Part shown: piece after piece, positions 2,083-18,288 of the stretch
Layout of the letters: each line of letters opens with the position of its first letter
Position numbering within the stretch: position 1 is the first letter of the stretch
Source: a virus
Strand: one strand, 5' to 3'
Virus record (IMG/VR): IMGVR_UViG_3300033388_003266
Span: 1-40,545 of that record
DNA: 40,545 nucleotides
The notes under the pieces: generated by a model
What the model was told of the DNA's origin: nothing
Databases searched by the model: none
What the model saw: only the letters and a program-made list of their open reading frames with translations
Translations under genes and position numbers: made by a program

Positions 2083-2315
2083 TTGCCTGAATCCTTATTT
2101 TCTTTTTCGTCTATTTTTATCTGCAATATCTTGTTTTCCAGCATATGGTTTCTAACCTTTAGCAAATTTATGATTATGATTGTGACCATAGAAACTATAC
2201 CAAGCAAGGACAGAATAATACCAAGCAATTGCGGAGGGATCAGCTCAAGTGTCTGAACTACCCCCAGCCCTGTTGCTCCTGCACTTACAATCCCACTCCC
2301 TGTTCCGTCTGTCAT
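2079..2315 (-). CDS. Holin-like membrane protein, 78 aa
   Basis: A 78-residue protein with a Gly-rich N-terminus, one or two adjoining hydrophobic stretches (about residues 17-52, around LLGIILSLLGIVSMVTIIIINLL) and a strongly charged C-terminal tail (LENKILQIKIDEKENKDSGK). Small size, membrane core and charged tail are the usual holin architecture; holins form the inner-membrane lesions that start lysis. It is coupled to the gene below by a 4-base overlap and sits among other membrane genes. No family motif is decisive, so another small membrane protein remains possible. Confidence 0.6.
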   Translation of the reverse strand: MTDGTGSGIVSAGATGLGVVQTLELIPPQLLGIILSLLGIVSMVTIIIINLLKVRNHMLENKILQIKIDEKENKDSGK

Positions 2316-9180: not shown

Positions 9181-9681
9181 TTACCATTTGGATGTCTCGA
9201 TACTCTTTCTTTGTTTCAGGAAAACATCAAGATCAAGACTATCCTTCTCTTCGTTACATTTTTTACAAGAAGGCGCCATGTTGTCAATATGATTTTTGCC
9301 ACCATTTACGGTAGGGATTACGTGGTCAACGGTCATATAGTCTTCAGCACCTGGCCTGTCTATTTGAATGTTTGTATGGCAGTAAGCACAAAGCCCACCA
9401 GTTTTTTCAAATACTGAGATCCTGATCCCTCTTTTTATTTTAAGCCCTTTACGTTTTGGCTTACTTCTCCTTTGGGATTTATTATTTACAACCTCGGCCT
9501 TTTTCTCTTTTGCATATTTTGCGGAAAGCTCTCTTGCTCTCGGGTGGCCCATGAATAGCAAAACTGTCTCGTTAAGCTCGATATCACAATCAATGCATAG
9601 TGGCCTATAGTTGTTGCCATCAGAACAAATCTGCCATTGGAATACAGCCTTCTGACCGCACCGGATACATTTCTTAACCAT
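9181..9681 (-). CDS. HNH endonuclease with N-terminal zinc domain, 166 aa
   Basis: The N-terminal part has CIRCGQKAVFQWQICSD...RPLCIDCDIELN, a four-Cys zinc unit I associate with phage proteins. The C-terminal HNH domain has CAYC (98-101), VDHVIP (118-123), the GGKN...DN loop and CKKCN (139-143), the full beta-beta-alpha-metal set. I chose the ATG at 9681 because family members open with the first Cys knuckle; a TTG at 9735 after AGGA would add 18 residues. It is driven by a putative promoter that faces away from the large RNA. It may be a homing-type nuclease or a packaging-associated HNH. Confidence 0.85.
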   Translation of the reverse strand: MVKKCIRCGQKAVFQWQICSDGNNYRPLCIDCDIELNETVLLFMGHPRARELSAKYAKEKKAEVVNNKSQRRSKPKRKGLKIKRGIRISVFEKTGGLCAYCHTNIQIDRPGAEDYMTVDHVIPTVNGGKNHIDNMAPSCKKCNEEKDSLDLDVFLKQRKSIETSKW

Positions 9682-9784
9682 AATACCTTTTACCGTGTAT
9701 GGTTGCTTCCGTTTGACTGACCATTTATCTTTCAAATTTTCATCCTATGTATAATAAATTATTATGTAATTCCAATACACATGA

Positions 9785-9826: not shown

Positions 9827-9855
9827 TTGACAACCAAAACCCAAAGAGGTATTGT
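9827..9855 (+). promoter_or_regulatory. Strong sigma70-type promoter for the large RNA
   Basis: The plus strand reads a perfect TTGACA (9827-9832), a 17-bp spacer and TATTGT (9850-9855). Transcription would begin near 9862 and run through the folded region to the terminator at 10,721-10,752. Confidence 0.65.
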
Positions 9856-9948
9856 TGATCATCAGCCGGAAGCACACTCCCTGATTGAGTTCAAAGTTTT
9901 GCTTGACCGGCACTTTTAAAGTACAGCGTTTTAGATCTTTGAAAATAT

Positions 9949-10106
9949 GGTGTGGTGGCGGAATGGGTAGACGCTACACCGAGACATCCCAGTGGTACTG
10001 ATCAACTGCGGTACGCATTACGGAACATGGAAAAAGGTAATTACTTTTCGATTGAACTAACGTGGAGGATGTTATGCAAGGTTCAAATCCTTGCCCACAC
10101 CTACCA
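9949..10106 (+). other. tRNA-like domain without an anticodon arm, at the 5' end of the large RNA
   Basis: A perfect 7-bp acceptor-like helix GGTGTGG (9949-9955) with CCACACC (10095-10101) encloses a D-arm like that of tRNA-Leu (TGGCGGAAT.GGTAGACGC) and a canonical T-arm (10076-10094, loop TTCAAAT); TACCA follows at the 3' side. Where the anticodon arm should be there is a 6-bp helix ACATCC/GGATGT (9984-9989 with 10067-10072) enclosing about 77 nt. The total is 158 nt, far longer than a tRNA-Leu. No U33-anticodon loop can be found, so this is not a normal decoding tRNA. It resembles the tRNA-like part of a tmRNA in architecture, but no tag frame is present. Confidence 0.6.
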
Positions 10107-10720
10107 AAAACTGAAGCGGGACAGTAAATCCGCCCCGGCTTGCCCCTGCTGAAAAAACGGGCTCTGCCGGATGAAGAAAGGCCCGTACCATTGACCATCG
10201 AAACGGGCAAAGAACAAAGTCGGCCCATCTGCCGGATCTACCCCATGGTGGTCCAGGCCATTGTCAGAGCCGATCAGTAAGGCCCGGGAGACTCCGGGCA
10301 GATTAGCAGCATGGGGCCAGGTTGTGGCTTGGTCCCATGCTTAACCAATAACACCCGCCACGCCTCTGGTTTAAGCGCACCCAGGCGGGTTACTTAAAAA
10401 GGTGGTGATTAAACTGTGGGGGATGGAGTAAATCCTTTGACATAAGGAAGGGGGCTGCGCATCCTAAAAACGCACAACAACATCGGAAGGGGGTGATGAG
10501 TTCAAATCTCAACCCATAAAAAGGAGATGCCTATGAATGTACGAATCAGATAAAATTCCTTCTAACCTCACCCAGGTTACCGGCCCGAAAAGCACCCACG
10601 CAAAGTAGGGGGAACCTGAAACCAAAAATGCCATAACCGGTCCCATGGAGGCAACGATGCCCAGAATTAGAAACCCCGATAAATAAAGTCCAGTTTCCAC
10701 AAACTGCTAACATGCATATA

Positions 10721-10752
10721 AACCCCCTGGTTGATTGGCCAGGGGGTTTTTT
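10721..10752 (+). terminator. Rho-independent terminator of the large RNA
   Basis: Plus strand: AACCCCCTGG (10721-10730), an 8-nt loop and CCAGGGGGTT (10739-10748), followed by a T run to 10752. The T tract is only on the plus side, which fixes the direction. The run reaches the stop codon of the convergent HNH gene. Confidence 0.85.
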
Positions 10753-10999
10753 ATTTGTGATGAATGGCGTGACATTCCCAGCAAAGACATTCCAAGTTTT
10801 CCGGTACGTCCTGCCCCCCCTGAGACTTCCGCTTGATGTGGTGACAGTGTAGGGCATGTCCTTCTGGTGGGTACATCTTCCCGCATCGTTCACAGGTATA
10901 GTTTTCTCGCAGAAATACCGCCCGGACTATCTTAGGCGGTATTCTGGTTTGCTTCTTTTTTTTCTTTGGCGGCTTCGGCTGGGGTCTGAAAGTGTTCAC
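10751..10999 (-). CDS. Small HNH endonuclease, 82 aa
   Basis: A single HNH domain: CERCG (36-40), LHCHHIKRKSQGG (50-62) and the final CLCWECHAIHHK, with a basic Pro/Lys-rich N-terminus (PKPPKKKKK). The start is GTG at 10999, overlapping the stop of the gene upstream (GTGA), so translation is coupled. Standalone HNH proteins of this size occur in phages as nicking or homing enzymes or with the terminase; here it ends exactly at the terminator of the large RNA. Its association with that RNA is noted under findings. Confidence 0.85.
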   Translation of the reverse strand: MNTFRPQPKPPKKKKKQTRIPPKIVRAVFLRENYTCERCGKMYPPEGHALHCHHIKRKSQGGQDVPENLECLCWECHAIHHK

Positions 11000-18214: not shown

Positions 18215-18215
18215 A

Positions 18216-18269
18216 GTCGAAACACCCTCCGGGGTGTCTGGCCGGGTGGGTCCCGGTTACTGATGAGAC
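18216..18269 (+). ncRNA. Type II hammerhead ribozyme
   Basis: All invariant hammerhead positions are present in the correct order. The stem II 3' strand GTC (18216-18218) is followed by GAA (18219-18221). Stem III is ACACCC/GGGTGT (18222-18227 with 18232-18237) with a TCCG loop. The cleavage-site nucleotide is C18238 (GTC triplet). Stem I is an 8-bp helix 18239-18246/18252-18259 with loop TGGGT. CTGATGA (18260-18266) follows, and the stem II 5' strand GAC (18267-18269) closes on the first GTC. Stem II is the open end, which defines type II. Predicted cleavage is between 18238 and 18239. Hammerheads are known in phages and metagenomes; this one separates two genes of one operon. Confidence 0.88.
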
Positions 18270-18288
18270 AACCAAAAAGGAGAATTTA

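Follow-up and report, generated by a model that had tools for sequence, protein, structure and literature searches.

A region of about 0.9 kb in the genome of a P22-like podophage is probably a non-coding RNA locus built of separable modules, of which one, an orphan abiF RNA, would serve as an RNA decoy antitoxin against AbiF, while another belongs to a phage-specific family of tRNA-Leu-like structures (TLS). The stretch of DNA analysed here, referred to as the window, comprises all 40,545 nucleotides of IMG/VR virus record IMGVR_UViG_3300033388_003266. Its portal and coat proteins match the Pfam families P22_portal and P22_CoatProtein, which bears out the P22-type podophage setting proposed in an earlier, sequence-only reading of this DNA. 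The region (9840-10760) is located between two minus-strand HNH genes, 9181-9735(-) and 10751-10999(-), and contains no credible protein gene, so that the same reading's ORF-free stretch is confirmed and its proposal of a non-coding RNA locus in a P22-like phage is supported. The strong plus-strand terminator it had described, a stem followed by a T-run, is present as well (Table 1). The consensus promoter stood only in part: the site exists, but four promoter-like sites have been found in a 1.5-kb scan against 2.1 expected, and the site is therefore not exceptional. Elsewhere in the window, an Rfam Hammerhead_II ribozyme (45.4 bits) is located at 18215-18277 (+), immediately 3' of a 112-aa ORF.

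Table 1. Predicted elements of the RNA locus, in window coordinates
Feature	Position	Strand	Characteristics
Promoter-like site TTGACA-17-TATTGT	9827-9855	+	10/12 consensus matches; chance level for the region
TLS	9949-10106	+	Perfect 7-bp acceptor GGTGTGG/CCACACC, Leu-type D arm, T arm, 3' TACCA; about 100 nt in place of the anticodon arm
TLS D arm GCG-GAATGGGTAGA-CGC (GCGGAATGGGTAGACGC)	9958-9974	+	Invariant in the family, in part through the search pattern itself
TLS P2 stem	9983-10073	+	GACATCC (9983-9989) with GGATGTT (10067-10073); ends 2 nt before the T stem, a recurring geometry
TLS T arm GCAAG-GTTCAAATC-CTTGC	10076-10094	+	Perfect pairing; pair probability about 1
Hairpin GCCCGGG-AGAC-TCCGGGC	10282-10299	+	Within the folding window 10280-10399
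15-bp hairpin AGCATGGGGCCAGGT...CTTGGTCCCATGCT	10308-10341	+	Strong in folding
abiF RNA motif (RF03085), CCCGCCA-CGC-CUCU...GCG-CA..GGCGGGU	10354-10390	+	Antitoxin-type hairpin, without an AbiF gene
Second T-loop hairpin (TTCAAAT)	10491-10515	+	T stem 4/5 paired
Intrinsic terminator	10720-10755	+	13-pair stem (10720-10749), then T-run; strong

AbiF, an Abi_2-family HEPN RNase related to Cas13, has the abiF RNA as its antitoxin (PMC12373285). In C. difficile this antitoxin is RCd22, which acts on AbiF by direct binding; neutralisation is effective both in cis and in trans and is lost when the stem is destabilised (PMC12373285). In silico analysis of the window revealed a hairpin of this type, whose cmscan score against RF03085 is 36.2 bits, just under the gathering threshold of 37 (E=1.2e-4 for 1.1 kb). 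It shows (i) the consensus CCCGCCA-N-GCCUCU ... GC-N'-CA ... GGCGGG, with N and N' paired, found at 10354-10389 with a C-G pair; (ii) a compensatory change from AGC/GCU to CGC/GCG in the Rfam alignment; (iii) a strict pattern with 24 bases fixed, matched once in the window and in none of 100 shuffles. The module is thus well supported as an orphan abiF RNA, even if its score stays marginally below the curated one. In an AbiF system the toxin gene lies directly downstream of the RNA; no AbiF-like protein is encoded in any of the six frames of the window, at that place or elsewhere. The phage thus carries an antitoxin-like RNA without the toxin.

The strict abiF pattern has been scanned in viral contigs and in bacterial and archaeal genomes, all counts below being among the matches listed, and AbiF was sought with a profile grown from sequences assigned to Abi_2 by Pfam. 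Among these listed matches, AbiF lies within 3 kb of 4/119 viral copies versus 76/116 genome copies. After removal of near-duplicates, and with flanks of at least 1.2 kb required on both sides, the listed matches give adjacency for 0/55 viral and 50/72 genome copies. No other protein family recurs near the viral motif in more than 7 of the 88 listed loci, so that an alternative partner or a substitute toxin is not evident. The one pair left free by the pattern, the inner pair, to which the covariation count is restricted, is Watson-Crick in 88 out of 88 distinct viral copies among the matches listed (C-G 52, A-T 17, T-A 11, G-C 8), the maximum in 10,000 shuffles being 52. The full pairing by four pair types indicates that the orphan viral RNAs are under present selection for structure.

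The same motif has been identified between genes in isolated lytic phages. Four T7-like Aeromonas phages carry it, in all three of those examined between the connector and scaffold genes; in Rhizobium phage Pasto it is placed between the o-spanin and major capsid genes, in Salicola CGphi29 in an intergenic gap, and in Synechococcus phage S-CREM1 inside a tRNA cluster. Among the genomes of 37 Aeromonas species, abiF RNAs occur in three, each with one copy that has an Abi_2 gene immediately downstream, and the host genus therefore includes the expected toxin partner. One of these three genomes (G038) has two further abiF RNAs on its chromosome, both without AbiF, at C1:534666-534702 and C1:590486-590522, 56 kb apart and possibly in prophages. 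According to a title cited in PMC12737573, DNA of the lactococcal phage sk1 protects against AbiF; an Rfam scan of phage sk1 gave no abiF match. In four viral contigs (L013, L029, L037 and L121) an orphan abiF is located directly 3' of gp32-like SSB, GroEL or putative major capsid genes, which are likely highly expressed. Another viral contig (L096) contains both a tRNA-like element and an orphan abiF motif, at 2136-2264 (-) and 9282-9317 (+), 7 kb apart.

It may be asked whether the phage hairpin is simply a compact terminator or 3'-end stabiliser which resembles the antitoxin and was later adopted by the AbiF system. A T-run follows 47/79 of the viral copies listed and 30/79 are found no more than 60 nt behind an ORF, so that such a role is possible for some of them, and several copies are preceded by ssb-like, GroEL or major capsid genes. 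However, the unpaired A, CUCU, the A before GC, and CA are invariant in the viral copies, beyond the needs of a terminator, even if some of these positions were preset by the search pattern. Moreover, the copy in the window has no T-run after the hairpin, and in sequence and covarying pair the viral copies are indistinguishable from the AbiF-linked ones. This explanation is rather unlikely. Considerably less credit can be given to the motif as a relic of an AbiF toxin-antitoxin module that has lost its toxin. Motif and AbiF do still occur together in four of the 119 viral contigs among the matches listed, whereas the perfect covariation of the free pair in the 88 distinct viral copies listed and the placement in compact lytic T7-like genomes argue for present selection on the viral RNA.

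The second module, the TLS, combines the outer parts of a tRNA with a large insert in place of the anticodon arm. No ordinary tRNA is predicted there by ARAGORN, and the Rfam tRNA model gives no match at E<=10; in intron mode, ARAGORN makes a weak call with a weak anticodon stem. A pattern allowing an insert of 82-110 nt revealed at least 119 viral loci, of which 83 show 7/7 acceptor pairing among the matches listed; these 83 comprise 65 distinct sequences. A covariance model (R1) was built from 53 of these viral TLSs, with the window left out, and finds the window copy at 9949-10104 with 62 bits and E=2e-14, the E-values of this model being rough. All seven acceptor pairs vary on both sides in the alignment, with a covariation score of 0.62 versus 0.17 for shuffled sequences; the complete acceptor pairing follows from the choice of fully paired sequences, which is not so for the variety of the pairs. 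Many members share with the window copy a stem that ends 2 nt ahead of the T stem, in the manner of a long variable arm; apart from this the inserts are very diverse. No match was obtained with an exact pattern for the 5' end of the TLS, and a BLAST comparison of isolated phages with three TLSs returned nothing useful. The identity of 9949-10106 as one of a phage-specific family of RNAs that resemble tRNA-Leu but have no anticodon arm is firm.

Further elements of this kind were noticed in other viral contigs. One of these contigs (L305, IMGVR_UViG_2831261926_000002) encodes on its reverse strand, at about 1663-2500, an array of tRNA-like elements of Leu, Glu and other types whose anticodon arms are replaced, and the array adjoins one ordinary tRNA. 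In a second contig (L323, 2666-3198), a phage tmRNA (68.9 bits) is located immediately before a tRNA-like element. In a third (L242, near 5747, reverse strand), the insert of the element holds a second D-arm/T-arm pair.

The Leu-type D arm, the T arm, the CCA-like end and the weak intron-mode call would also suit a decaying or intron-containing ordinary tRNA-Leu gene, with the locus as the remnant of a tRNA cluster. This origin is highly improbable, since the same anticodon-less form with a covarying acceptor recurs in at least 65 distinct viral sequences, mostly away from tRNA genes (14/65 members among the matches listed are near ordinary tRNA genes, and many lie in long ORF-free stretches), and a common anticodon stem is not evident in the diverse inserts. 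In bacterial genomes the form is nearly absent: the pattern occurs in 2/395 genomes of one phylum and 1/297 of another (692 genomes of two phyla). A search of the literature found no published description of an anticodon-less tRNA-Leu-like phage family, which in itself is weak evidence, and we know of none. Bacterial leucyl-tRNA synthetase recognises its substrate independently of the anticodon, and RNAs of this family could therefore be charged with leucine; for the window copy charging is disfavoured, because T rather than A follows the acceptor.

The sequence-only reading had described the whole region as highly structured and assigned it to GOLLD or ROOL, to a divergent relative of these or to a new class. 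The folding of the 899-nt RNA is modest (z -1.76), two of 20 shuffles folding equally well or better, so the description as highly structured does not hold for the region as a whole. Windows of 120 nt have a mean z of -0.62 versus -0.04 in coding controls, and only three are outstanding: 10280-10399 (z -3.8), 10240-10359 (-2.4) and the terminator window (-2.4). At the level of single elements, the 11-bp stem which that reading had placed at 10,309-10,340 is confirmed and extended to 15 bp. Its T-loop hairpin is present with an incomplete T stem and no convincing acceptor; a second tRNA-like structure around this loop was rejected, the acceptor candidates pairing at only 6/7 positions and the T stem at 4/5. 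That reading missed both the tRNA-like domain and the abiF motif. In the 899-nt thermodynamic model the pair probability of the abiF stem is about 0.07, versus 0.78 in isolation, and that of the tRNA-like acceptor about 0.02, versus 0.72; whole-RNA folding as modelled disfavours both.

The search with Rfam models proposed for GOLLD and ROOL has been carried out with Rfam 15: neither GOLLD nor ROOL nor any further family of large RNAs matches, whether the whole window is scanned at the gathering threshold or the region at E<=10. BLAST of the entire region against phages and plasmids matched only terminator and tRNA-end fragments, and in the nearest relatives by DnaB and ERF (57% identity) the RNA is absent; the 0.9 kb is not kept as a unit in any relative. 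Weak Rfam matches to ncr1175, His_leader and RNAI were dismissed as terminator-driven chance, and ARAGORN calls of tmRNA and permuted tmRNA at a lowered score as noise. The size, the phage context and the tRNA-like part, together with the tRNAs sometimes contained in the GOLLD linker (PMC12286853), speak for a divergent GOLLD, ROOL or similar ornate RNA, which is nevertheless barely credible given the missing Rfam match, the modest overall folding and the lack of a homologue of the whole. For these reasons the region is best read module by module. A new class can be spoken of only in the sense of a mosaic, in which a known RNA, abiF, out of its usual context is joined to a tRNA-derived family that could not be matched to a described one.

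Under the preferred interpretation, a decoy antitoxin accompanied by a tRNA-like module, the phage would transcribe the region as one RNA during infection, without AbiF toxin of its own. AbiF RNase freed or activated in the infected cell could then be re-bound in trans by the phage abiF hairpin, and this re-binding of the Abi_2/HEPN protein would blunt abortive infection. The TLS may allow tRNA-type end processing and protection, giving the RNA defined ends; alternatively or additionally, it may be a second decoy that engages host factors which bind tRNA. The recurrence of both parts across many phages points to a wide distribution among phages of RNA decoys directed against bacterial defences. 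A bolder proposal, offered tentatively as possible rather than probable, is that phages carry multi-module decoy RNAs, a single transcript uniting a mimic of the AbiF antitoxin with a tRNA mimic that lacks the anticodon, and that both modules form part of widespread phage arsenals, orphan abiF being a general anti-AbiF strategy and the TLS a second, undescribed class of decoy.

Cas13 is proposed to descend from AbiF, a widespread defence toxin that a small RNA keeps under control. If it is true that many phage lineages carry abiF without the toxin, antitoxin RNA mimicry would be a common form of counter-defence and not confined to the pseudo-ToxI of phage PhiTE. Aeromonas phages already in hand make the abiF decoy idea testable. 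The tRNA-like family is a virus-restricted RNA class, missed by tRNA finders such as ARAGORN or labelled as tRNA by Rfam.

There are both similarities and major differences between this locus and known systems. Like GOLLD and ROOL, it would be a large phage-encoded RNA, and the GOLLD linker holds tRNAs in some cases (PMC12286853), yet neither sequence nor structure matches. The T4 species 1 RNA (rnaC), a stable phage RNA encoded in a tRNA cluster, is about 140 nt long and resembles the TLS in its tRNA-like T arm. In contrast to the TLS, rnaC has no Leu-type D arm; a common family with T4 rnaC/rnaD is not supported, the TLS model matching the T4 region only weakly and at the T arm. With the abiF RNA (RF03085) and RCd22 (PMC12373285), the window motif shares the hairpin, the conserved nucleotides and the covarying inner pair, and it differs in being phage-borne, in the longer RNA locus around it, and in the lack of both a downstream AbiF gene and a T-run of its own. 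The abiF sRNA of S-CREM1, reported through an Rfam scan in PMC9964418, is likewise an orphan in a phage genome. The accessible part of that paper notes three phages in Rfam with abiF and, in contrast to the present interpretation, makes no proposal of a decoy role for the S-CREM1 sRNA. The closest functional model for the proposed decoy is the pseudo-ToxI of phage PhiTE, with which the phage mimics a type III RNA antitoxin and suppresses abortive infection (PMC3475682). The toxin there is ToxN instead of the HEPN protein AbiF, whose decoy would be the phage hairpin described here, and abiF recurs across many unrelated phages. Phage mimicry of an RNA antitoxin is thus known from ToxIN, and the new elements are its AbiF version, its breadth, and the pairing with a tRNA-like RNA.
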